Shown here: positions 11,765 through 26,530 of the stretch, in pieces | Position numbering within the stretch: the stretch's first letter is position 1 | How the letters are laid out: the number at the start of each line of letters is the position of its first letter | Assembly (NCBI GenBank): GCA_017446685.1 | Contig: JAFSQI010000089.1 | Span: 1-33,580 of the forward strand | DNA from: Butyrivibrio sp. | GTDB lineage: Bacteria; Bacillota; Clostridia; Lachnospirales; Lachnospiraceae | Direction of reading: 5' to 3' | DNA: 33,580 bases | Notes under the pieces: generated by a model | What the model was told of the DNA's origin: nothing | Seen by the model: the letters and a program-made list of their open reading frames with translations, nothing else | Database searches by the model: none | Translations under genes and position numbers: made by a program

Positions 11765-12022
11765 ATGATCACAAAATCTATCGAAATCAAACTAAAGGGC
11801 GGTCTTGAGGCAAGACCTGTTGCAGAGCTAGTTCAGCTTGCAAGCAAATATGACAGCACACTTTACATTGAGGCTCAGTCAAAGAAAGTAAATGCCAAGA
11901 GCATTATGGGAATGATGACACTCAATCTTAATTCCGGAGAGGCAGTTACAGTTATTGCTGATGGAAGTGATGAGACAGAAGCTGTCGCTGATATGGAGAA
12001 TTTCCTTCAGGGAAACAAATAA
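11765..12022 (+). CDS. HPr-family protein, Crh-like (Glu15 replaces catalytic His15)
   Basis: This 85-residue HPr-fold protein aligns throughout with PTS phosphocarrier HPr, but the active-site motif reads GLEARPVAEL where HPr has GLHARP. The codon at position 15 is GAG (Glu), so it cannot accept phosphate from Enzyme I at N1 of histidine. The second site is intact: Ser46 within NAKSIMGMM, the target of HPr kinase. This is the same logic as Bacillus Crh, which has Gln15, and the protein may be a corepressor-type signal for CcpA or a metabolic regulator. A strong AGGAGGGG site precedes the ATG by 4 bases. Its neighbours hprK, rapZ and whiA fit a PTS-independent regulatory circuit. A ptsH annotation is likely in automated pipelines and would mislead about function. 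Confidence 0.93.
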   Translation: MITKSIEIKLKGGLEARPVAELVQLASKYDSTLYIEAQSKKVNAKSIMGMMTLNLNSGEAVTVIADGSDETEAVADMENFLQGNK

Positions 12023-12237: not shown

Positions 12238-12479
12238 ATAAAAAAGTGTTTTGAAAGCGAGAAAAATTTTCACTTAATTGTTTACGCCTTCTAATACAAA
12301 ATCTAGACTTAATCGTCGAAAATCACCACAAAATCTATGCGTAGTCACAATTTAATAGAAAATTAATAAATAATCAGTGTATTAATAATGAAAAAAAGTT
12401 TAAAATTGTGTGTAGAAATTGTGAAAAAAAGTTCACAGAAATGCTTCCAAAAGTGTTTCTTCATATTTAGGGGATTGAA
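12238..12479 (+). promoter_or_regulatory. AT-rich upstream region of the first surface-protein module
   Basis: This stretch of about 240 bases has no gene. It contains two AATTGTG boxes (12404-12410 and 12417-12423) with the larger core GTTTAAAATTGTG at 12398-12410. A near-identical GTTTAAATTGTG recurs at 21143-21154 upstream of the second module, there facing an inverted CACAAT (21165-21170). A shared regulator site is possible. No convincing -35/-10 pair was found. The first small gene follows an AGGGG ribosome site. Confidence 0.35.
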
Positions 12480-12716
12480 ATGAGAACAAATAGTCAACAA
12501 AGTAATGGCTTTGAAGAATGCAAAAAGAGAAAAGGTACTTTTGTTGTAAAAGTAGAGTATTGTCAAAACGGTACGTGGCAAGGAAATGTGACCTGGGCTG
12601 AAGAAAACAAGTCACAAAGGTTTAGAAGTGGATTAGAGCTTATAAGAATGATGGACGAAATTTTGGAGCAGGCAGAAATAATTCAAAAATCAGAAATAAA
12701 CGAAAATTTTATTTGA
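12480..12716 (+). CDS. Small conserved protein, partner of the giant surface protein (copy 1)
   Basis: This 78-residue protein has no signal peptide and no membrane segment, and I do not recognise the family. It is clearly paralogous to the 76-residue product at 21237-21467. The shared core reads KGTFVVKVE-x-CQN-x-TWQG-x-V-x-WA-x-ENKSQ-x-F-RS, then an amphipathic helix ELIRMMDE. The core looks like a small beta domain followed by one helix. The start is ATG 12480 with AGGGG 6 bases upstream. It ends 24 bases before the ATG of the giant surface-protein gene, and the same pairing is repeated downstream, so it probably works with that protein, for example as a cytosolic regulator or export helper. 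That role is inference from context only. Confidence 0.85.
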   Translation: MRTNSQQSNGFEECKKRKGTFVVKVEYCQNGTWQGNVTWAEENKSQRFRSGLELIRMMDEILEQAEIIQKSEINENFI

Positions 12717-12740
12717 TAAATTTTTTTGGAGGGAGAAAAA

Positions 12741-15700
12741 ATGAGTAGAAAAAAGAACAAAGTACTTGCATTTATTCTCGCTGTTGCTATGGTCGTAACT
12801 TCGTTTGGAAGCGATCTGGCAGTTACAAGAGCGTATGCTGTTGAAAGCGAAGAAGACTTGGAAGAACTCAAAAGTCGTGACATTGCGACTGCAGATTGGG
12901 AAGTGATTCCTGATGGCGAACAGGATAATTCAGCTGTATCATCGGCTACAGAGGGAGTGGTTAATGATGCAATAGAGGATGCCGCAGTAACAGCTTCAGA
13001 GGCTGAAGAAAGTTCAGCGGTTTCTGATACAACGGTGACAGAAGCTGTAATCGATAACTCTGATGTTTTAGATAGTACAGAGGCTTCTGCGAGTCTTTTA
13101 AGTTCAGACGTGAATTTGAATGCGGCAACAAGTTTTTCAAGTTCAGAGGAAGATTTGGAAGCTTCTGCAAGTCTCTCAAGTTCAGGAGAAGACTTAGAGG
13201 CTTCTGCGAGTCTTTCAAGCTCACAAGATGAATCAGGAGCAGCATGTTCTTCTTTAGAAGAAAAAAATGTGACTGTAGAATATAGAGCGACTAAGGGTGG
13301 AAGCGTTTCTGTATCGAAAGAGACAGTTAATATTCTGGATGAGAAGGCTGAGTTTAAAGGAGCAACAGCGACAGCTTGGAATGATGAATATAAGTTCGTG
13401 GATTGGACTGATGAAGATGGAAACCAGATTAGTACAGAATCTACTATTATTCCAAGCGACATTTCAGAGGATAAGATTTATACTGCAAACTTTATAGCAG
13501 TTGAAGATATTTCTGATAAAATGCCCGGTATTGAAAAAGAGGGAGTTCATGAAGGCGGAGTAGTTGTATCTGTTAAGGCTGAAGAAGGTATTTTTCCAGC
13601 TGGAACAGAAGTGGTAATAACTGCGGTTTCAGATGAGCAGGCGCTTGATACTGCCAAAGATGCGCTTGGAGAAAATATTACAGTAGCAAAGGGTGTAGAT
13701 ATAAGTTTTGTATATGAAGGTAATGAAATTCAGCCTGCTGATTTTAACTATGTACATGTGACACTCGCTCTTGAGGAAAACCTTGAGGGAGATAATTTTA
13801 GTGTGCTTCATGACCATGGAAGTGAAGTTGATGTAATTGAAGCAGAAGTATCAAAAGATGAAGATGGTAAAGTTGAGAGTGTTGAATTTGATACAAATGA
13901 GTTTTCAATTTTCATTATTGCCGGTGATGGGGAAAATTCTTCTACTGATACTGACGATGGAAGAGCTGTTGCAACAATAAGATTTTATAAAGAAGAAATC
14001 AATTCAGGATCCAATGAGGTTATTTTCGAAAAATTGGTTAAAAAGGGAGATGCAGTAGCAAATCCTGGTATTCCAACAATAAAAGATAATCAAGAATTCA
14101 TCGGATGGTATATAGATGGTGATAACAGCAATGAATCAAATAGGGTTTCTTTTTCTCCATCGGATGAGGATCCATCAAGTTCATATATAGTTGATCATGT
14201 TGTACAGGATGAAATAATAGAAGTATATCCTGTAATCAGGTCAACTTATTATGTAACATTTATTGGAAGTGACGGAGAAATTGCCAGAGTTAAACAGGTA
14301 ATAGTTAATAAGGAAGAAGATAAAACACTTGATCTGTCCAATATTACGATTCCAGCACCTGCAGGGAGAGCTTTCAAGGGATGGTCAACGGAAAAAGATA
14401 ATGAAGAAAAAATTGTTTCTTCAATCAATGTTACAACTGACAGTTTAATGCTTTATGCCATTATTGTAGATGCGTTTTGGATTAGATTCGAAGGAAATGT
14501 TTGCGGCGGATGGGGTTCAACCTATACAGGTCCGGTTTTTGTTGAAAATGGTGATACGTTAAGATATGCACTTTCAAAAGTTACAACAGTACCTGAAAGA
14601 ACGGGATATACCTTTAAAGGCTGGTCTTTTTATAATGAAGTAAATAATACTGTTCTTACAGAGGCAGATCTTGATACTGAAATACAGGATGTTTCAGAAA
14701 CATTTCTTGATAAGAAAAAAGATGAATTGTATCTCTATGCTGTTTGGACACCGAATGATAAAACAAAGTTGACAATAATTGAATGGCATCAGAATGCTAC
14801 TCTTGATGGGTATGACTATGCAAAAAACTGGGTATTTGAAGGAGCTACAGGAGTAACAACAAATAGTACAGTTACAGTTGCTGAGAGTAAAGGTAAAGTT
14901 GTTGTATCTACATCTAAGGATGGTGCTGTTAAAACGATAGATAAGTTTGAAACAGGATTTAATTATGATACTTCATTAGGAAGCTACTATACTATAAAAA
15001 ATTCAGAAGAGGAAAAGAACGAACAGGGAGAAATAATAGGTAATAAGGATACTACAATAGTAGAAGCCACTGGCGATACTGTTGTTAATATCTATGTTCA
15101 GCGTAAAGAAATCAAGGTTGAATTTAAATTATTAGAATGGGTATATAAGCAGACGAATGATAATTACGGAAGTCTGTATGGTCTTGTTGGCGGAAATTAT
15201 GTTGAACTGGGTAAATATGGTAATTCTTGGTATTATTATGGTGGGCAATATAGGGGTAAAAGATACAAAAAGTCATTAGAGCCAACAGATTATAAGATTT
15301 TTACCGGCAAATATGGACAAACTTATTCACAGACAAATCAAAGCTGGCCAAGTGAGTATCAATGGTATGAAGAATATGATCAAGATGGTGTTAAAGGAAC
15401 ACACTATACATTTCTTGATTCGTTCCTGTTGGATCAGACTCTTTACGGAGAAGCAGCTGAATCAGTAGGACATACCTTCTATCACTATAAACAGAATATT
15501 GATGGAAGTTATTCACTGGATGGGACAGCAACAACTACAGTTACCGGTAAGGGCGGAAAATTTGGATTTACTGATAAGTATAATGCTTTTTCCGTATCCA
15601 GATATCTTCAGGCGGGAAGTCTTATAAATACAAATTGGCAAACATGGAAAAAATGTCATGACGATTTGGCTAATCCAAGCGGAGAGGGAGATTATAGTAT

Positions 15701-18700
15701 AGATTTAAAAGATGGAGATAATCTTTATATTCTCCACGAAAGGCATAAATTTGATCTCACGCTTAGAGTTTTTGACCCTGTATCCGGAAATGAAACTGAT
15801 ACAACAATTAGCGGAATTCCATATGAACAGGTTTTAAACGATAATTCTAAGGTTGCTCCGTATGCAAAGGCCGACTATACTCCTGGAAAAAAGCAGGGAT
15901 ATTCATTCGGATGGTACAAGGATCCGTTAGGAACAACCCCGTTTGATTTTTCAATGCAAATGCCTGATGGCGGTGCTGTGGCTTACGGAATTTATAAACC
16001 AGTCGAGTACACAATCACACTTATTCCGGATGGCGGAACTTTTGTTGCTGGTTTGGCGGGATTAAATGGAAAAGATCCTGCAACATTTATGATTAAATCA
16101 ACCGAAGAAGTTGATCGAAATAACCTGATTACAGGTATTAAGAAAGATAACTATGAGCTTACCGGATGGTATTATCCTAATGGACAAGAGTTTAAATATG
16201 GACGTGTGACAGAAGATACAACACTTATAGCTGTTTGGAGATATCAAGGATATACCAAAGTGGTATACAAAGCAGGTGATCACTTTAGTTTTGATGGTGG
16301 AAAAAAGGAGTTTATTCCGGATTATAACTATGCGACAGATTCATCAGTTGTAGTGGCTGCACCTCCAACAACTACGATAAACGATGAAGTAAACAAAAAG
16401 TATTATACTTTTATTGGATGGGAAGTAAAAGGAAATCAAGGAAAAACCTATTATCCCAATGATGTATTTACTATTAATTCTAAATTGATTGATGCCGGAG
16501 AAGAAAGGTCTGGAGTCAGATATGTTGTTGTAAATGCGGTTTATAAGGAGACAGGTGAGCCAGGTGGAGAGGATGAAAAAACTTTAATAATTTATGATCC
16601 TAATATTGCGGGTCAAGGTGCTGACGCAGGGCAGGCACAAATCACTGAATCACAATTAAAGGTTAATAAATCTATAACTGTCAGAGGAGCAACATTTACA
16701 AAAGCGCGTTATAAGCAGACTTCCTGGAATACTAGCCCTGACGGTAGCGGGCTTACAGTTAATTTTAAGGATAGTTTGAATGCAGCTACAATTATTGGAG
16801 CTGATAATGTTAACAGAGCTGGAAATAGTAATGCAAATATTCTCTATGCACAGTATGAACCTGTTGAACTGGTTGTTGAAATTAAAGGAAGCAGCATAGA
16901 GTGTCCTTATAATAACGAATGGATAACTAATAAAGAATATACAATAAATTCAGCAACTTATTATGATGCGAACGATAACAAAGTAACTGTATTTGATTTT
17001 ACCATTGAAAATGTAAATTATAAGGGAAGTGGTATAAAAGAAAAAGATGTTAAGCTAGATGCAAATAACAAAGTTATAGCTTACGAAATTGCTCTATCAG
17101 CGAATGACTTTGAACCTAAAAATAGTGCATATCAAAATGTACGTTTTGTTATTGATCCTAATAACAGCAAACTTAAACTGACAATTAATAAAAGAAAAGT
17201 AACGCTTACATCAGCAACTGCTGAAAAAGAATACAACGGAAGTCCTCTTACTAAAAATGCGCAGACAGATATTGCCGTAACAGAAGATGGTTTTGCCGAT
17301 GGAGAAGGCGCAACATACGATATAACAGGAAGCCAGACAATTGTAGGGAGTAGCGAAAATAGTTTCACGTATACATTAAATACAGGTACAAAAGCTGATA
17401 ACTATGAAATAACAAAAGTCTATGGTACTCTTACAGTAAAGAACAGAGGAGCAAAGTATAAGATTACAGTAAAGGCAAACAGTAATGTAATCAAATACGA
17501 TGGTAGCCCAAAGACAGTAGAAGGCTTAGAAACAACCAGTTTTTCCATAGACGATAATACGTATACAGTAAGTGGACTAAGCGCATCAGCCAGCGGAACA
17601 GATGCGGGAACTTACCCTTCAAATGTTATAGGAACACCGGTAGTAAAAGATGCAAATAACAATGATGTTACTAGTCAGTTTGCAGTAGGTACAGAAAACG
17701 GACAACTTTCAATTGAAAAGAGAAAAGTAACGCTTGAATCAGCAAGTGCTGAACAAAAATACAATGGAAAACCTCTTACTAAAAATGCGCAGACAGATAT
17801 TACCGTAACAGACGATGGTTTTGCCGATGGAGAAGGCGCAACATACAATATAACAGGAAGCCAGACGATTGTAGGAAAAAGCAAAAATACTTTCACTTAT
17901 TCTTTAAATGAAGGTACAAAAGCGGACAACTATACAATTGTACCGAAGGAAGGAGAACTTGAAGTTAAACCGCTTTCCGACAATGAAAAACTTGAAATAA
18001 CAGTACAAGCAAATAGCGGAACGTTTGATTTTGACGGAAAGCCGAAAACAGTTTCAGGATTTAAAGACAATAGCTATACAATAAATGATGCAGTATTTAC
18101 CGTAGAAAATCTGGTGGCTTCGAGAACAGAAACAAATGCGAATGAGTCAGGATATTATGTAGAAATAACTGGAACTGAAGTGGTAAAAGATGCCGACGGT
18201 AATGATGTAACAGCACAATTTAAAGTAAATAAAAATCGAGGTCTTCTTGTAATCAATAAGAGATATGTTTCTCTTACATCAGCAAGTGGATCAAAGGAAT
18301 ATGATGGATCACCGCTTACCAAAAATGAGTTGACGGATATTTTGGTAGGTGGAGATGGTTTTGCTGAGAATGATGGAGCTACATATAACATCACTGGAAG
18401 TCAGACGTTAGTTGGATCTAGTCCTAACAAGTTTACTTATAAGCTTAACGAAGGAACTTTACTAAGCAATTATACTATTGAACCATTTGAAGGAATGCTA
18501 ACAGTTACGAATCGTGAAGCAAAATATGAGATTACTGTAGAGGCAAAAAGTAAAGAGGATAAATATACTGGAGAAAATCATACAGTATCAGGACTAAAAG
18601 AGACTACATTTGATGTGGCAGGACACAAATATACAGTAAGCGGGTTAAATGCATCAGCCAGCGGAACAGATGCCGGAGCATATCCATCCAATATAACAGG

Positions 18701-21086
18701 AACTGCGGTTGTAAAGGATAAAGATGGAAATGACGTAACAAGTCAGTTCGCAGTTAAAACAACAGCAGGAAAACTTGTTATAAAACAGAGAGAAGTACTG
18801 CTTACATCAGCAAGTGATACTAAAATGTATGATGGAAAACCTCTTACTAGAAATGCGCAGACAGATATTACTGTAACAGGTGATGGTTTTGTTAAAGATG
18901 ATGGAGCTACATATAACATTACCGGAAGTCAGACTATTGTAGGAACAAGTGCTAATGAATTTACTTATACTTTAAGTGAAGGAACAAAATCATCTAACTA
19001 CAAAATTGATAAAAAGGAGGGAAATCTTACAGTAACAAACCGAGATGCAAAGTATGAGATTACAGTAAAGGCAAACAGTAATGTATTCAAATACGATGGT
19101 AGCCCAAAGACAGTAGAAGGATTAGAAACAACAAACTTTATTGTTGAGGGAAATGCATTTACGGTTGAAGGTCTTACTGCATCAGAAACTCAAACAAATG
19201 CAAATGAATCAGGATATACTGTAAATGTTATCGGAACAGCAATTGTAAAGGATGCTGATGGCAACGATGTTACAGATCAGTTTGCAGTAACACCGGAAAA
19301 CGGAAAGCTTGTAATCAATAAGAGAAAGGTTACACTTACTTCTGCAACTGATGAAAAAGAATATGATGGAAAGCCTCTTACTAGAAATGCGCAGACAGAT
19401 GTTTTGGTATCCGAAGATGGTTTTGCTGGCGATGAAGGAGCAACATACCTGATTACAGGAAGCCAGACGCTTGTTGGAAACAGTGAAAATATTTTTACTT
19501 ACGTTTTAAATGCAGGAACGAAGAAAGAAAACTATGAAATAACTCCAGCCTACGGTACGCTCACTGTAAAAAACAGGGATGCAAAGTATGAGATTACAGT
19601 TGAGGCATTGAGCTTGAATGAAACATATAACGGAAAACCAAAGGCTGTTGATGGCTTAAAAGAATCAACCGTTTCTGTAAATGGTCAGAAATTCAAAGTA
19701 AGTGGTTTGACAGCGAAAGGAGAAGGAACAAACGCAGGAAGTTATCCGGTTAATGTTATTGGTACTGCAGCAGTATTGGATGAAGACGGAAATGATGTAA
19801 CTAGTCAGTTCTCTGTAAAAACAAAAAATGGAATAATTAATATTGAAAAGGCAAAACTTACAGTTGAAACTCAGAGTGCTGAAAAGGAGTATGACGGTCG
19901 ACCTCTTACTGCAAAAGGAAAAATAACTGGATTGGTAAATGATGAAACAGTTACTTTTACAGTTACAGGCTCACAGACATCAGTTAATGAAGGAACCCCT
20001 CACGAAAATAACAATACTTATTCCCTTCTGTTTGATGGTACAGCAAAGGCTGATAACTACGAAATAACAGAAAAAATAGGTACACTTACAGTCAAAAACC
20101 GTACAAACAAGTATGTTGTTAGTGCACAAACAGATGATGTTACCATTACATACGATGGGTTAAGTCACGGAAACTTTGATTTTAGATTAGAGGCTAAGAA
20201 CAATAATTTATTAATGAATATGGTTCAGCCTGTAACAGATTTCTTTAACAATCTATTCTCATTGGTTGTAAATGGAATGGATAAGACTTCTGAAATATCC
20301 ATAGTTGCGGATGGTATGACTTATAAAGTTACCGGTGTCAAAGTTGCTACAGAAGCTACAGATGCTGGAAAATATGCAATGAAAATGGATTTTGACGAAG
20401 CTAAAGTAATAGACGCAGAGAATAATATTGTAACAGACCAGTTTAGCTTTGAAGAAGACAAAATGGGTATTCTTACAATTGAAAAGGCGCCTATAACAAT
20501 TACAACAGGATCGGCAACTAAGACATATGATGGAACCCCTCTTACAAGTCCTGATGCACAAATTGATGGACTTGTAAACGGAGAAACAGCAAGTGTAGTA
20601 GCAACAGGGACACAGACATTAGTAGGTAGTAGTGAAAATAGTTACGTAATTAGCTGGGGAGAAACTAAGTCAGATAACTATGAGATAAGTGAAAAACTAG
20701 GAACTCTGGTTATCACGGATGCGTCGACACCAACGCCAACACCTACACCTACACCAACACCGACACCTACACCAACACCAACGCCAACACCAACGCCGAC
20801 ACCTACACCAACACCGGCACCTACACCAACACCGGCACCTACACCGGCGCCGACTCCTGCAGCACCAGTACCGGTTCAGGTAGCTGATCAAGCGGTTCTC
20901 GGAGCTAGAAGAACAGACGGAGGTACAGGAAATGCCAGTGGGCAGGCAGTCCTTGGTGCTAGAAGAGGCAAGACGGAAGATGAAACAAATGAAAGCGCAA
21001 GAGTAATAGCTATAATTGTTTCAGCAGTGGCAGCAATTTCCTTATTAATTTTAGGAAAAAGGAAAGAGGACGAAGAAACAAAATAA
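12741..21086 (+). CDS. Giant repeat-rich secreted surface protein (MBG/YDG domains), copy 1
   Basis: This 2781-residue protein is probably an adhesin or cell-surface fibre. It has a signal peptide (1-33, cleavage after RAYA), then a Ser/Glu/Ala-rich segment (34-175) with EASASLSSS repeats. An InlB-like divergent B repeat follows (about 179-253, [11 protein letters not shown]...FVDWTDEDG). A conserved [18 protein letters not shown] domain (about 260-395) and Listeria-Bacteroides-type beta-grasp repeats (FIGWY, FKGWS) extend to about 675. A long central region reaches 1375. Alternating MBG/YDG modules cover about 1375-2659. The end has a TP-rich stretch, VLGARR twice (V2719 and V2737), one membrane helix and KRKEDEETK. 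There is no LPXTG motif and no sortase gene nearby. The start is ATG 12741 with GGAGGG 7 bases upstream; a TTG at 12726 is rejected. The frame is intact throughout. Ligand and attachment mechanism are unknown. Confidence 0.93.
13149..13226 (+). repeat. 39-bp tandem repeat encoding [12 protein letters not shown]
   Basis: Two adjacent 39-base units (13149-13187 and 13188-13226) encode near-identical 13-residue Ser-rich segments, and a degenerate relative (EASASLLSS) lies just upstream. The unit is a multiple of three, so copy-number change would keep the frame. The segment lies just after the signal peptide of the giant protein. Confidence 0.75.
17193..20718 (+). repeat. Tandem MBG/YDG supermodules (A1-B1 to A6-B6, then A7)
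   Basis: Two module types alternate. Type A (about 85 residues) carries [23 protein letters not shown] and NYEI..GTLTV. Type B (about 90 residues) carries [23 protein letters not shown] and [13 protein letters not shown]. Type A starts at 17193, 17721, 18261, 18789, 19323, 19851 and 20487, giving a period of 528-540 bases except the last pair (636). Some copies are almost identical at DNA level: A1 with A2 around [10 protein letters not shown], and B1 with B4 around [17 protein letters not shown]. The second giant protein has only one B-like and one A-like unit at the matching place. Confidence 0.9.
20727..20874 (+). repeat. Thr-Pro dipeptide repeat (wall-spanning stretch)
   Basis: About 48 codons alternate Thr and Pro, drifting to Ala-Pro near the end, built on 6-base units of the ACACCA/ACACCG kind. 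It separates the MBG array from the VLGARR-membrane segment and probably crosses the cell wall. It is prone to slippage in whole codon pairs. Confidence 0.9.
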
Positions 21087-21103
21087 AGAAAATATTGATT
21101 TTG

Positions 21104-21136
21104 GAGGCTGATCAAATGATCAGCCTCTATTTTTTT
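21104..21136 (+). terminator. Terminator after giant surface gene 1
   Basis: A perfect 10-bp stem (GAGGCTGATC at 21104-21113, GATCAGCCTC at 21118-21127) with loop AAAT is followed by TATTTTTTT. It begins 17 bases after the stop and closes the first module. Confidence 0.92.
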
Positions 21137-21185
21137 AAATGTGTTTAAATTGTGAATGAACATACACAATTAGATGAAAATATGA

Positions 21186-21215
21186 TTGGTTTTATGATTG
21201 TTGATTTTTTATAAT
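21186..21215 (+). promoter_or_regulatory. Promoter for the second surface-protein module
   Basis: TTGGTT (21186-21191) and TATAAT (21210-21215) are 18 bases apart, giving a predicted leader of about 15 bases before ATG 21237, just enough to hold the GGGGG ribosome site. Upstream lies ATTGTG(21149-21154)...CACAAT(21165-21170), a possible operator that shares its core with the region before the first module. Confidence 0.5.
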
Positions 21216-21236
21216 ATTTGACGTTGGGGGATAAAG

Positions 21237-21467
21237 ATGAAAAAGGAAAATATGATAAAAAATAGTAATACTGATAATTCTAAAAAAAACGGGACTTTTA
21301 TAGTAAAGGTTGAAAAATGTCAGAATGAAACCTGGCAGGGGCAGGTTATTTGGGCAGATGAAAACAAATCCCAGTACTTTAGAAGCGCAATGGAACTTAT
21401 AAAGATGATGGATAATGCATTGCAGAAAAGGCAAATGATAGAAAATATAGATAGAAAATATAGATAG
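21237..21467 (+). CDS. Small conserved protein, partner of the giant surface protein (copy 2)
   Basis: This 76-residue paralogue of the 12480-12716 product has the same core (NGTFIVKVE, CQN, TWQG, WADENKSQ, FRSAMELIKMMD). The N-terminal 17 and C-terminal 10 residues differ, while the middle is strongly conserved, which supports a real protein under selection. There is no signal peptide. GGGGG precedes ATG 21237 by 6 bases. The last residues (about ENIDRKYR) and the stop are encoded by a 13-base tandem repeat running into the intergenic gap. The gene is followed 61 bases later by the second giant surface-protein gene. Function is not recognised. Confidence 0.85.
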   Translation: MKKENMIKNSNTDNSKKNGTFIVKVEKCQNETWQGQVIWADENKSQYFRSAMELIKMMDNALQKRQMIENIDRKYR

Positions 21468-21485
21468 AAAATATAGATAGAAAAG
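21438..21485 (+). repeat. 13-bp tandem repeat across the end of the small gene
   Basis: The unit ATAGAAAATATAG occurs three times in direct succession (21438-21450, 21451-21463, 21464-21476), followed by a partial unit (to 21485). The array covers the last codons and stop of the small gene and the leader of the giant gene. Because 13 is not a multiple of 3, slippage would change the small protein's C-terminus. Confidence 0.9.
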
Positions 21486-21528
21486 TATCTGTTTAAAATA
21501 GATTTTGTGGAGGAGAGGTAGAAAGAGG

Positions 21529-24500
21529 ATGAAAAAGAAAAAGAATGTAATTTCGATTCTTCTTGCGCTTGCACTTATTACTACTTCATTTGGTAGTGAT
21601 TATGGAGCATCAAGGGCTTACGCTATTGAAAACGAAGATGGAATGCAGAATATAGCAGAAGACGAAATTAAAACAGTCGAGTGGGAAAAAGTACTTGAAG
21701 ATGGTGACAGCTTAAACGAAGCATCCGGGACATTGTCAGAATCAAGTGAAATGGAAGTAAATGAGGATTTTGAGTCTGATATATCGACAGAATCAGAGTC
21801 ATCTGTAGATGATTCTATAGCTGCAAGCTCAGAATATGTCGAGGGAGTGATAGCATCTGATTCTTCCGAAGAAATATCAAATTGTGAAGCTGCAGAAACA
21901 TCTAGCGACTCAAACGAAGGTTCTTCAGTATATGCAGCAGAAGAAGCTTCAAGTGATGCGACTGAAGGCATTTCTAATGATGCCAGTGGGGAAGCTTCTT
22001 TGGAAGAAAAGCTGGTTACTATAAGCTATAATGCTACAAAGGGTGGTTCAGTTTCAAATAGAAAAGAAACTATAAACCTTAATTCCAGTGAATCTATTCC
22101 AGAGGGTGCTACAGCAACACCGTGGAATGATGAATATGCATTTACATATTGGACAGATGAAGACGGAAACCAGATTTCATCGGAGGCAACGTTAGTACCT
22201 GATGAGGTTACAGAGGATACAGTCTATACAGCTAACTTTGTTTCAATAGAAACAATTTCAGATACAATGCCAGCTATTGTGGTAAATGATGTACATAAGG
22301 GTGGATTTATTGTGTCGGTAAATGCGGAGGAAGGACTTTTTCCTGCAGGTACAGAAGTTGTTATTACAGAGATATCCGATTCACAGGCACTTGATACTGC
22401 CAAGGATACTCTTGGAGATACAGTTACATCTGCAAAAGCAGTAGATATAAAGTTTGTTTATGGTGAAAATGAAATACAGCCTGTTGATTTTCAGTATGTT
22501 CATATTTCACTTTCTCTTGAAGATACAATTGAAGGCGAATCTTTCACAGTCCTCCATGAGCATGCAGGTGACGTAAAAGAGATAAAGAATGCTAACGTAA
22601 GTACAGAAGATGTTAACAATGATTCTTCTGATAATACACAAATTGCTACAGCGGCAGAATTTGATGTAAATCAATTTTCTATTTTTATTATTGCCGGACA
22701 AGGTGACAATTCAAGCGATGACTCGGATGATGGCAGATCAGTTGCAACAATCAGGTTTTACAAAGATTTAAAGGATTCCTCCGATAATGAAATAATCTTT
22801 GAAAAGAAAGTAAAGCAGGGAGATACTATTTTAAATCCCGGAATGCCCCAAATTTCAGATAATCAGGAGTTTGTGGGATGGTATATAGAAGGCGATACAA
22901 CAAGCGAAGATAATAAAATCGCTTTTTCACCATCAGATGATAATCCAAAGAGTACATATACAATAGGATATGTACAGCAGGATGCAGAGGTCAATGTATA
23001 TCCGGTTGTCAGAACATCATATTATATTACTTTTGTTGGTTCAGATGGCGAGATTATAAAAGTTATTAAAGTAACTGTAGAAAACGAAGAAGACAAATAC
23101 TATGATGTTACAACAGAAGAAGCAACTGCCGGAGCAGGAAAAGAGTTCAAAGGTTGGTCAACTGTAAAAGGTGATTTAAACAGCATTGTAAAAACAGTTG
23201 ATGTAACACAGGGAAATCTGATCTTGTACGCAACAGTAGTAGATGCTTATTGGATAAGATTTGATGGAAATGGAAGTGGATCTACATACACGGATCCTGT
23301 ATATGCAGAAAATGGCGAAACACTTAAAACTGCATTAAATAGAGTTGCTTCTGTCCCTGAAAGAACAGGCTATGAATTTAAAGGCTGGTCTTTTGGAAAG
23401 TCATCAGATAATAAAGTGCTTACTGAAGATGAATTAAATACCCAGATTCAGGATGTAGCAACTTTAGACAATGAGAAAAAGGAACTATATCTTTATGCAG
23501 TATGGCAGGCTAAAGATAAAACAAAGATAACAATTATTGAATGGCATCAGAATATAACTTTAGATGATTATGATTATGCTAACAGCTATGAAAAAGAAGT
23601 AACAGCGGGAAGTACAATAAGTGTATTGGAAGATAACGGGAAAGTTACTATTAGTACTTCTGCAGGTGACGATGATATTGTAATAAGTAGTTTTTCAAAG
23701 GGATTTACATATGACAAATCAAATGGAAGCTACTATACAATTACAGAAACAGAGAGCGATGCTGCTGGAAATGTAGTCAATAAAGATACATCGATTGCAG
23801 ATGCATCCGGTAATACTGTTGTAAATATCTATGAACAGCGTGAAAAGATCACGTTGACCTTTAAAATATATAAGGATGGAGAATGGACAACATATAAAAC
23901 TATTACCAAAGGATATGGACAAACTTTGGATACTACTGATAGCAAATGGCCGGATGAGTATAGTTGGTATGTTAGTTATGAAGGAAGCAAAACAAAAGGT
24001 ACGCATGTAACTTTTTTGAATGCCCTTTTGTTTGATCTGACAATGTATGGTGAGGCTAATCCTACATCTGGTCATAAGTTCTATCATTTCAAACAGAATA
24101 TTGACGGAACTTATGATATTGATGAGTCTATGGCAACGAATGTAGGAATTGGACCGGGTGATGGTTTTGATTTTTACGATAAATATAATGCCTTTTCTGT
24201 AGTAAGATATTTAAAGGCATCAAGTATCACAAATACCGATTGGGAAAACTGGAATCAGTGCTATGATTCACAGAAAAACTCTGTAGGAACAGGTGATACA
24301 AAAACAAAGTTGGCAAAAGATGATAACCTATATATTCTTCATGAGAGACATAAGTTTGATCTTGTTCTTAAAATAACAGATCCTGTAACAGGAGAAGTTA
24401 AAGAGGAAAAGGTAACAGATATACCATTTGAGCAGGTATTGGAAGACAATACTGATGTTCAGGAAAAAAGATATGCGGAAGAAGGATATACTCCTGAGGA

Positions 24501-26478
24501 AAAGCAGGGATATACATTTGCATGGTATAAAGATCCTACAGGCACAACAAAATTTGACTTTTCAATGCAGATGCCGGATGGAGGAGTTGTTGCATATGGT
24601 ATTTATAGACCGGTGACTTATGAAATAAGACTCCATCCAAACGGAGGTGAGTTTATATCTGGTTTACAAGATGCTGAGTATAATGTAAGTGGCGCGGACG
24701 AAGATCTTTCTTCAAGAAGTATTTATGTATTGTCAACTCAGGATGTAGAACGCAATAAGCTTTTAACAGGAATTAAAAAAGATGGCTATGAGTTTGTGGG
24801 CTGGTTTTACAACACAGAAAACAATAATGAGTTTAAATATGGAAGAGTAACTGAGTTTACAGATCTTGTTGCTTTATGGCGCAGCCAGGGATATACAAAG
24901 GTTGTATTTAAAGCAGGAGAACATGGAAGTTATGCGGGCAATGAGAAAGAATATATTCCAGAATACAACTATGCCACAAATTCTGCAGTGGTTGTTGCTG
25001 CACCACCAACTCATATTTTAAATGACGAAGAAAATAAGAAGTACTATACATTTATCGGTTGGGAAATTCAGGGAAATGATGGAACCATTTTCTACCCCAA
25101 TGATGCATTTACTATCGAAGACAAAATAATCAATGCCGGTGAAATTAGAGTTGAGAATGGTAAAGAAATAAGATATGTTGTGGCCAATGCAGTATATCTG
25201 GAAAGTAGCGAACCAGGTGGTGTTGATGAGCTTACATCAATTATCTATGATCCTAATATTGAAGTTGCAGGAGCTGATTTTGGTCAGAGCCAGGTAAAAG
25301 AAGATAATAATCTGAAAATCAATAATAGTGTAAAGGCAAAGGAAGCTCTTTTTACAAAGAAAGGTTACATACAGACATCATGGAATACAATGCCTGACGG
25401 AACTGGTCTTGAAGTACCTCTTGGTGCAGAAATAGCGGCTGATAATATTGATAGAATTAAAAACAGTAAGAGTAATATTCTTTATGCGCAATATGAAGCT
25501 GCCCAGATAACTGTAGAAATAGAGGGAACAACTAAAGAAGAAACTTATAATGGTAAAGAATATACAAATGCTGATTATATAGTTTCAAGAGCTTATTATT
25601 TTGATAATGCAGGTAGAGAAATAGCTATTAATAAAGATGACCTGGCTATCAATTACATTGGCGATGGTGTCAAGGGAACGGATGTAAAACTTGACAGTAA
25701 AGGCAATATAATAGCATATGAAGAGGTGATTGCAGCAACAGATTTTGAATCAAAATCTGTGCGATATCCAAAGGTTTCTTTCAAGATTTCAGATAATAAC
25801 CTGTTAAAGCTTAAAATATCTCCTAAGCAGCTTAGTGTAACAACTGGTTCAGCAAAGAAAAAATACGATGGAACGGCAATTACAAATTCAGTAACGACAG
25901 TTTCTGGACTTGTAGATGGTGAGACGGCAATAGCTGTTGCGACAGGTTCACAAACTGAAGTCGGAATCAGTCAAAACAGTTATTATATGTCGTGGGGTAC
26001 GGCTAAGAAAACGAACTATATTGTTGCTATAGAGAAACTTGGAACTTTGGAAATTTACGATGATAGTGTGCCGGTAGATCCGACACCTACGCCGGTAGAT
26101 CCGACACCAACACCGGTAGATCCAACACCAACGCCGGTAGATCCGACACCAACACCGGTAGATCCGACACCTACACCAGTGGATTCTACACCGACATCTA
26201 GTGTTACAGAGTCAGATACATCTTTAACGCCGGAAATAGAATCAGAACCTGTTGCATCTGTTGTTATTCCGGTACCTGTGGTTGATCAGGCAGTGTTAGG
26301 GGCCAGAAGAGAGACAATAAGTAGTATTGATTTGCCGGAAGTACTCGGAGCAAGAAGACCAAGTACTGAGGATGAGACAAATGATACTGCAAGAATGGTT
26401 GTTGTAGTGATTGCAGCAGGCATAGTAATAACACTACTTTTAGCTGGCAAAAGAAAAAAAGAAAACGAAAAACAGTAA
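21529..26478 (+). CDS. Giant secreted surface protein, copy 2 (short form)
   Basis: This 1649-residue paralogue of the 2781-residue protein is collinear with it. The signal peptide is 1-32 (cleavage after RAYA), followed by an acidic Ser-rich segment to about 160. The InlB-like repeat follows (GGSVSNRKETI...[11 protein letters not shown], about 163-238), then the conserved [13 protein letters not shown] domain and the beta-grasp FVGWY and FKGWS repeats. The same [24 protein letters not shown] and SMQMPDGG blocks form the central region. Near the C-terminus it has one B-like unit and one A-like unit (GSAKKKYDGTAIT), then six PVD(P/S)TPT repeats. VLGARR occurs twice (26293-26310 and 26341-26358), then a membrane helix and KRKKENEKQ. 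The start is ATG 21529 with AGAGG 10 bases upstream; TTG 21505 is rejected. There is no LPXTG. It is probably a surface adhesin. Confidence 0.92.
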   Translation: MKKKKNVISILLALALITTSFGSDYGASRAYAIENEDGMQNIAEDEIKTVEWEKVLEDGDSLNEASGTLSESSEMEVNEDFESDISTESESSVDDSIAASSEYVEGVIASDSSEEISNCEAAETSSDSNEGSSVYAAEEASSDATEGISNDASGEASLEEKLVTISYNATKGGSVSNRKETINLNSSESIPEGATATPWNDEYAFTYWTDEDGNQISSEATLVPDEVTEDTVYTANFVSIETISDTMPAIVVNDVHKGGFIVSVNAEEGLFPAGTEVVITEISDSQALDTAKDTLGDTVTSAKAVDIKFVYGENEIQPVDFQYVHISLSLEDTIEGESFTVLHEHAGDVKEIKNANVSTEDVNNDSSDNTQIATAAEFDVNQFSIFIIAGQGDNSSDDSDDGRSVATIRFYKDLKDSSDNEIIFEKKVKQGDTILNPGMPQISDNQEFVGWYIEGDTTSEDNKIAFSPSDDNPKSTYTIGYVQQDAEVNVYPVVRTSYYITFVGSDGEIIKVIKVTVENEEDKYYDVTTEEATAGAGKEFKGWSTVKGDLNSIVKTVDVTQGNLILYATVVDAYWIRFDGNGSGSTYTDPVYAENGETLKTALNRVASVPERTGYEFKGWSFGKSSDNKVLTEDELNTQIQDVATLDNEKKELYLYAVWQAKDKTKITIIEWHQNITLDDYDYANSYEKEVTAGSTISVLEDNGKVTISTSAGDDDIVISSFSKGFTYDKSNGSYYTITETESDAAGNVVNKDTSIADASGNTVVNIYEQREKITLTFKIYKDGEWTTYKTITKGYGQTLDTTDSKWPDEYSWYVSYEGSKTKGTHVTFLNALLFDLTMYGEANPTSGHKFYHFKQNIDGTYDIDESMATNVGIGPGDGFDFYDKYNAFSVVRYLKASSITNTDWENWNQCYDSQKNSVGTGDTKTKLAKDDNLYILHERHKFDLVLKITDPVTGEVKEEKVTDIPFEQVLEDNTDVQEKRYAEEGYTPEEKQGYTFAWYKDPTGTTKFDFSMQMPDGGVVAYGIYRPVTYEIRLHPNGGEFISGLQDAEYNVSGADEDLSSRSIYVLSTQDVERNKLLTGIKKDGYEFVGWFYNTENNNEFKYGRVTEFTDLVALWRSQGYTKVVFKAGEHGSYAGNEKEYIPEYNYATNSAVVVAAPPTHILNDEENKKYYTFIGWEIQGNDGTIFYPNDAFTIEDKIINAGEIRVENGKEIRYVVANAVYLESSEPGGVDELTSIIYDPNIEVAGADFGQSQVKEDNNLKINNSVKAKEALFTKKGYIQTSWNTMPDGTGLEVPLGAEIAADNIDRIKNSKSNILYAQYEAAQITVEIEGTTKEETYNGKEYTNADYIVSRAYYFDNAGREIAINKDDLAINYIGDGVKGTDVKLDSKGNIIAYEEVIAATDFESKSVRYPKVSFKISDNNLLKLKISPKQLSVTTGSAKKKYDGTAITNSVTTVSGLVDGETAIAVATGSQTEVGISQNSYYMSWGTAKKTNYIVAIEKLGTLEIYDDSVPVDPTPTPVDPTPTPVDPTPTPVDPTPTPVDPTPTPVDSTPTSSVTESDTSLTPEIESEPVASVVIPVPVVDQAVLGARRETISSIDLPEVLGARRPSTEDETNDTARMVVVVIAAGIVITLLLAGKRKKENEKQ
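26071..26196 (+). repeat. 21-bp tandem repeat encoding PVDPTPT
   Basis: Six head-to-tail 21-base units encode five PVDPTPT and one PVDSTPT heptapeptides. The units differ at a few third positions only. It replaces the TP dipeptide stretch of the first giant protein at the same position before the VLGARR segment. Confidence 0.95.
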
Positions 26479-26494
26479 ATTTTTTCAAAAATAA

Positions 26495-26530
26495 AGGTGG
26501 GAAGTCATATAAGTGGCTGCCCACTTTTTT
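26495..26530 (+). terminator. Terminator after giant surface gene 2
   Basis: GTGGG (26497-26501) pairs with CCCAC (26520-26524), with a further inner pairing AGTCA/TGGCT, and is followed by six T residues. It closes the second module 17 bases after the stop. Confidence 0.8.

Follow-up and report, generated by a model that had tools for sequence, protein, structure and literature searches.

Small beta-beta-beta-alpha proteins linked to a BTAD regulator, a direct-repeat promoter and giant surface proteins in Butyrivibrio and related bacteria

The DNA analyzed here is an entire contig of 33580 bases (referred to below as the window) from a 3.24 Mb draft genome of Butyrivibrio sp., and it contains two adjacent paralogous modules at positions 12480-21129 and 21181-26526 (Table 1). 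Each module consists of a small gene coding for 76 to 78 amino acids followed by a gene for a giant secreted repeat protein. An original prediction made from the letters of this DNA had described a duplicated two-gene layout, and this layout is real, with the small genes being 63% identical and the giants 50% identical. The strong terminator ascribed to both modules is present after module 1, where the stem has 12 pairs, while module 2 ends in a weaker stem of 6 pairs; the gap between small gene and giant contains none of the 13 terminator-like sites detected in the window in either module. As described below, the small genes are members of an undescribed protein family of gut bacteria. Two features that the prediction had not seen, a BTAD regulator and a promoter repeat, account for the association of small genes with surface proteins better than a pairing of small gene and giant does.

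The open reading frames of giants A and B (12726-21086 and 21505-26478) open at TTG codons, at 12726 and 21505, respectively. The better starts are ATG 12741 and ATG 21529, because each of these follows a GGAGG-type site and begins a signal peptide (signal peptides of the giants were called by reading and a hydrophobicity rule). The two proteins are 50% identical over 1591 amino acids; their N-terminal parts match, and giant A has extra MBG repeats. Both carry a signal peptide, List_Bact_rpt/MBG repeats and a C-terminal hydrophobic stretch with a basic tail, and List_Bact_rpt is above the Pfam cut-off in both. Their designation as MBG-type proteins holds fully for giant A, the only one with MBG_2 above cut-off, and in part for giant B, where one region matches MBG-containing parts of giant A at 34-41% identity. 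The Gram_pos_anchor domain (LPXTG) is absent from both giants at E <= 1, and the C terminus has VLGARR..T[ED]D instead. In giants A and B and in the giants of loci L038-L134, a longer signal, VLGA.R..VLGARR..T[ED]D.T[ND], with a hydrophobic stretch and a KKKEEE-type tail, replaces LPXTG, and this C terminus may mark a separate anchoring route.

Table 1. Features in and around the two modules of the window
Feature	Position	Strand	Basis or description
HPr (ptsH-like) gene, upstream of module 1	11765..12022	+	PF00381, E 5.6e-28
Palindrome TTGTGAA-N6-TTCACA, upstream of module 1	12419..12437	no strand	Sequence match
Small gene A, 78 aa, beta-beta-beta-alpha domain at residues about 21-60	12480..12716	+	AlphaFold2, family profile
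Giant A, about 2781 aa	12741..21086	+	Signal peptide, List_Bact_rpt, MBG repeats, PT-rich stretch, C-terminal VLGARR-type anchor
Intrinsic terminator of module 1	21102..21129	+	12 pairs, then T-run
Direct-repeat promoter of module 2	21181..21215	+	TATGAT 21181-21186, N6, TATGAT 21193-21198, 11 nt, TATAAT 21210-21215
Small gene B, 76 aa, domain as in small gene A	21237..21467	+	Paralogue of A
Giant B, about 1649 aa	21529..26478	+	Signal peptide, List_Bact_rpt and InlB-like repeats, PT-rich stretch, VLGARR-type anchor
Weak terminator-like stem of module 2	26511..26526	+	6 pairs

The small proteins of the two modules had been said to be conserved in the core and divergent at the ends, and this description is borne out: the identity of 63% extends over 54 amino acids (E 3e-26), and the termini diverge. 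On the 46-codon core of the two genes, the nonsynonymous divergence (dN) is 0.21, with the synonymous divergence (dS) saturated and not estimable (NG86 returned -1). Since a dN of 0.21 is accompanied by saturated dS, the pair fits purifying selection. Neither small gene matched a Pfam or NCBIfam family above cut-off, and a PDB sequence search yielded only designed helical proteins, which align to the helix with E 7.9e-6 at best, and one match at chance level. AlphaFold2 predicts a confident beta-beta-beta-alpha core with a core pLDDT over 90, and in the two-domain proteins of the family, this core is predicted twice. A comparison of the model with known folds, with HicB-like, dsRBD and PUR folds as candidates, gave no significant match. 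One idea is that the small protein binds nucleic acid, be it the mRNA or the DNA of its operon, and autoregulates translation or transcription alone. We regard this idea as the least probable of those considered and quite unlikely, as weak structural hits are common at such a size, the window has no Rfam match at gathering thresholds, and the association described below follows a regulator protein.

That the small gene belongs to a genuine conserved family, as proposed, is evident from its distribution. Members were found in 60 of the 79 genomes of the genus (149 hits) and in 58 of 299 Lachnospiraceae genomes, that is, in 57 of 298 sampled genera, or about a fifth. Further members occur in loci titled Oscillospiraceae, Gemmiger and Fournierella, the last two of which we take to belong to Oscillospiraceae. 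The family consensus, T-F-[IV]-[VI]-x-V ... Q-N-x-[TS]-W-Q-G-x-V-x-W ... F-R-S-x-L-E-L ... D, was drawn from 92 single-domain and 57 two-domain genes, and the R of F-R-S is variable in the two-domain group. We also compared 78 named related loci, 43 of them titled Butyrivibrio and 35 not. A third family locus in the window's own genome, on contig C115, has a single-domain and a two-domain gene. Behind these two genes (L006:5080-11531) lie genes for an alpha/beta hydrolase, a GH28 protein, a pectinesterase, a ribonuclease and barstar, a run that is pectin related and includes a barnase-barstar-like pair.

Outside Butyrivibrio, many small genes adjoin a gene for a BTAD regulator of about 410-430 amino acids. 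The genome of the window has a single BTAD gene, P0006 on contig C2, whose product is a homologue of these regulators and matches PF03704 (BTAD) with 42.9 bits against a cut-off of 22.1. The N-terminal DNA-binding domain Trans_reg_C (OmpR/winged-helix type) is not listed for P0006 at E <= 0.001; among four homologues, two score above the cut-off of 26.2 bits (28.1 and 27.3) and two score below it (24.8 and 21.1). The tail of the regulator is GGDEF-like by weak profile hits. The GGDEF/GGEEF catalytic motif was found in none of 46 aligned regulator rows, which represent about 42 different genes since four genes appear twice, and [SN]xxQ[FY] usually stands at this place. The gene that follows P0006 (L255, from about 2706 onward) looks like a RelA/SpoT-type synthetase by reading of its sequence. 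In a Pygmaiobacter metagenome-assembled genome (L186:6551-7412), a regulator homologue with a shortened frame of 287 amino acids lies beside a two-domain gene.

The two families occur together far beyond chance. Among 299 genomes covering 298 genera, 54 have both the small domain and the regulator, 4 the small domain only, 17 the regulator only and 224 neither (Fisher 2.6e-39), so that the regulator is present in 54/58 genomes with the small domain versus 17/241 without it; the threshold for a regulator homologue (E <= 1e-20) was picked after the tables had been seen. The small-domain and regulator surveys drew 299 genomes each, and the listed handles agree, full identity being assumed. Outside the genus, small domain and regulator are no more than 2 kb apart in 39 of the 56 genomes with the small domain, and 53 of 62 pairs share a strand. 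Within the genus, 55 genomes have the small domain and BTAD, 5 the small domain only, 6 BTAD only and 13 neither. For the 46 genomes that are at least 94% complete, these numbers become 38, 0, 2 and 6; this cut was likewise chosen after the tables had been seen, and genomes from the same genus do not count as independent. Of the 35 loci without Butyrivibrio in their title, several of which come from one genome (e.g., L203, L228 and L233), 19 have the regulator on the same strand. A small-domain gene starts -20 to +540 nucleotides past the regulator end in 16 of these, and the other 3 have gaps of 1.65 kb and 3.4 kb and a fusion. In this fusion (L232/L137, one genome), Trans_reg_C, BTAD and the small domain are joined in one protein of 605 amino acids.

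A second shared element is a direct repeat in the promoter. The sequence ATGAT-N7-ATGAT lies upstream of 73/92 single-domain and 11/59 two-domain genes in the genus, and all 84 repeats have a period of 12 where 11-13 was allowed; mononucleotide shuffles gave a repeat of this type in 12 of 3020 cases. (The 59 two-domain hits include two overlapping duplicates, and some share the promoter of a preceding single-domain gene.) Among the upstream regions, 55 of 148 in the genus and 10 of 67 in other genera contain an exact 6-mer repeat of period 12 followed by 11 nucleotides and TANNNT, while each of the other periods from 8 to 16 gives 0-2 regions in the genus and 0 in other genera. The hexamer itself differs in other genera, and the period is unchanged. 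The distance from the repeat to the -10 element peaks at 11 nucleotides in the genus, with 28, 55 and 21 regions at 10, 11 and 12 nucleotides, respectively. In the genome of the window, ATGAT-N7-ATGAT-N11-TANNNT has four sites (control, 0), which precede small gene B, the small gene on C115, a giant on C111 that has no small gene, and a glycosyltransferase-like gene on C46. Across the 79 genomes of the genus, 346 sites were found versus 37 for the reversed control, and a minority of the sites is thus due to chance. Sites number 1.46 per Mb in genomes with BTAD and 0.58 without it, and 1.54 with the small domain and 0.40 without it.

In addition, 20 further motif loci were chosen by eye among the matches listed, away from small genes and giants and favoring strong -10 elements. 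Of these, 14 lead into secreted-looking proteins and 2 into a PilZ or PilZ-like gene that precedes a secreted giant; the rest comprise one EAL-histidine kinase protein, one acyltransferase-like, one glycosyltransferase-like and one unclear case. For proteins outside the Pfam scan, the names endonuclease III, acyltransferase, glycosyltransferase, chemoreceptor and pilin are presumptive. The PilZ gene is that of L301 (above cut-off), the PilZ-like gene, which has no Pfam hit, that of L302, and the EAL-histidine kinase gene that of L291; their position behind the repeat hints at control by cyclic di-GMP. Such sites, which would also drive other surface genes, suit a reading in which the small protein belongs to the regulator's regulon and otherwise works on its own, as an effector or ligand sensor, because PilZ and EAL-histidine kinase genes behind the motif offer a parallel for a small protein that heads a surface operon and resembles a sensor. 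The co-occurrence and the adjacency outside the genus are tighter than would be expected of an ordinary target gene, and one member is fused to the regulator, and we therefore hold an independent sensor to be unlikely.

The association with large secreted proteins, part of the original prediction, is strong. In the genus, 57/92 single-domain genes precede such a protein (55 of at least 500 amino acids and 2 cut by a contig end), compared with 60/886 other genes of the genus set; this test of the next gene skips further small-domain genes, and secretion was called by a simple hydrophobicity rule that misses some proteins (e.g., that of L058). In the 35 loci not titled Butyrivibrio, giants follow 8/14 single-domain and 17/33 two-domain genes (background, 28/356). 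The prediction had been staked on homologues not lying mostly away from large secreted proteins, which is so for the single-domain genes, whereas the two-domain genes of the genus do lie away from them. Seen from the giants, a small gene is present at most 1.2 kb upstream in 55 of 91 that share a common signal peptide (among the matches listed, down to E 1.7e-10), and none was detected for 36. The profile for this peptide derives from 33 giants that neighbor small genes and that all belong to the 55 positives; among the giants outside these 33, 22 of 58 have a small gene upstream. In 20 fetched loci of the 36 giants without a small gene, a profile search did not find the small domain. An exclusive pairing is not supported, and small gene and giant are strongly, yet not obligatorily, paired. 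Of the 92 single-domain genes of the genus, 35 have no large secreted protein next; they are followed by shorter secreted or membrane-anchored proteins in 19 cases (in part an alpha/beta hydrolase lying after a two-domain gene), proteins not called secreted in 11, opposite-strand genes in 3 and contig ends in 2.

These numbers also bear on the view that the small protein acts in the cytosol as a chaperone or export pilot reserved for the giant whose gene comes next. The operon pairing with large secreted proteins, the presence of an own small paralogue in each module and the overlapping or closely spaced genes in other genera would all suit such a role. It is harder to reconcile with the 36 giants that have the same signal peptide and for which no small gene was detected upstream, and with the syntenic locus L244, where HPr is followed by a giant and the small gene is missing. 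Relatives of the small gene also precede genes that do not encode surface proteins, and a chaperone would not be expected to be fused or tightly linked to a DNA-binding regulator. A role as an export pilot is thus improbable in our view. With regard to the two roles suggested originally, control of expression is the better guess, and a dedicated export factor is not favored.

On the basis of sequence data, we lean toward the view that the small protein serves in the cytosol as a regulatory partner, within a regulon of surface proteins that is governed by a single BTAD/SARP-like transcription regulator. The genomes show directly that the family exists and is coupled to the regulator (by co-occurrence, adjacency and one fusion), that a promoter architecture is shared and that single-domain genes are linked to large secreted proteins. 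The regulator, with a putative winged-helix-like N terminus, a BTAD domain and a GGDEF-like tail that lacks GGDEF, would bind the pair of direct repeats that, with a period of 12 bp, lies shortly before the -10 element (TATGAT-N6-TATGAT in Butyrivibrio). Once bound, it would recruit polymerase and activate operons headed by a small-domain gene or a surface-protein gene. The small protein, as the first product of such operons, would in turn bind the regulator and tune its activity, most likely by feedback or as an adaptor for whatever signal the GGDEF-like tail reads. We infer both of these binding steps and the sign of the effect; the role of the small protein as a modulator is suggested because it is the first product of many target operons and is once fused to the regulator. 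In its widest form, the proposal is a widespread three-part switch of Lachnospiraceae and Oscillospiraceae. Its parts would be an activator of the SARP-like kind whose GGDEF-like sensor tail is catalytically dead, one- and two-domain beta-beta-beta-alpha partners binding the activator and a 12-bp repeat promoter, and it would govern how giant surface proteins, pili and matrix genes are expressed, perhaps in answer to cyclic di-GMP or another nucleotide. This wider version is tentative and rather doubtful.

Several observations weigh against a regulatory partnership of this kind. Small-domain genomes that lack the regulator exist (4/58 at the post hoc threshold of E <= 1e-20), as do loci without it (16 of the 35 not titled Butyrivibrio, three of which have at most 1.1 kb upstream of the first small gene). 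The fusion was seen in a single case only, and contig C2, which bears the regulator of the window's genome, bears no small gene. The repeat precedes few of the two-domain genes, was not found in the promoter region of module 1 and stands before some giants that have no small gene; in other genera, spacings of 10 and 11 nucleotides to the -10 element are equally frequent (10/67 each). None of the 57 two-domain genes of the genus stands before a giant.

Within the window, module 2 fits the proposed mechanism fully, and module 1 may answer to another regulator. The palindrome upstream of module 1 has this single match in the 3.24 Mb genome (control, 0) and is a possible operator of such a regulator. 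The same palindrome lies upstream of the giant in L244. The HPr stretch has blastn matches in L125, L118, L056, L095, L039 and L244, and the site behind HPr in these relatives holds a small gene or a giant. Where it holds a small gene, the next gene encodes a large secreted protein (L056, L118 and L125) or a protein of 309 amino acids (L039 and L095), and these varied contents resemble a shuffled cassette site.

With respect to known systems, the regulator and the repeat surface proteins are of known kinds. The small family, its coupling to the regulator and the promoter architecture were found neither in Pfam, NCBIfam or Rfam nor in the literature searched (one open-access library). The repeat type of the window's giants is that of four List_Bact_rpt proteins of Butyrivibrio proteoclasticus B316, which are listed as cell-surface proteins in a section that mentions neither a small partner nor a promoter or regulator of theirs (PMC2914790). 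Sortase-type pilus operons are similar in that, by Pfam, Cna_B and SpaA proteins that carry an LPXTG anchor come after the fused regulator of L232 and the two-domain gene of L221 precedes a VWA surface protein; other loci are alike by reading only. In contrast to such operons, the window and most of the genus have a List_Bact_rpt/MBG-type giant with a VLGARR-type C terminus downstream, and no description of the small family in pilus operons was found in the same library. The PilZ-headed surface operons of L301 and L302 share the promoter repeat and the secreted giant downstream, although the PilZ domain is unrelated, the small genes having no PilZ match in Pfam or NCBIfam. To our knowledge, little has been described on how large adhesins and pili are switched on and off in rumen and gut Clostridia. 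If the proposal is true, surface attachment in about a fifth of the family's sampled genera could be approached directly through a single class of regulator, one operator architecture and one protein family that has no name yet.

The closest parallel is with the AfsR-type SARP activators, which have in common with the regulator described here the BTAD domain, the winged-helix-like N terminus (putative for the latter) and direct repeats adjoining the -10 element; for one regulator (L198), AfsR is also named weakly, far under the cut-off, by NCBIfam. SARP activators bind direct repeats with a period of 11 or 22 bp, the 3' repeat lying 8 bp from the -10 element (PMC10936776). The period of 12 bp and the 11 nucleotides to the -10 element seen here resemble this geometry and yet depart from it, and the departure also tells against our reading. 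The hosts, which are of the Clostridia type, the control of surface-protein rather than antibiotic operons, the GGDEF-like tail and the small partner protein set the present system apart as well. Should the proposed mechanism be correct, SARP-type regulation, which is best known from antibiotic clusters, would reach to surface proteins.
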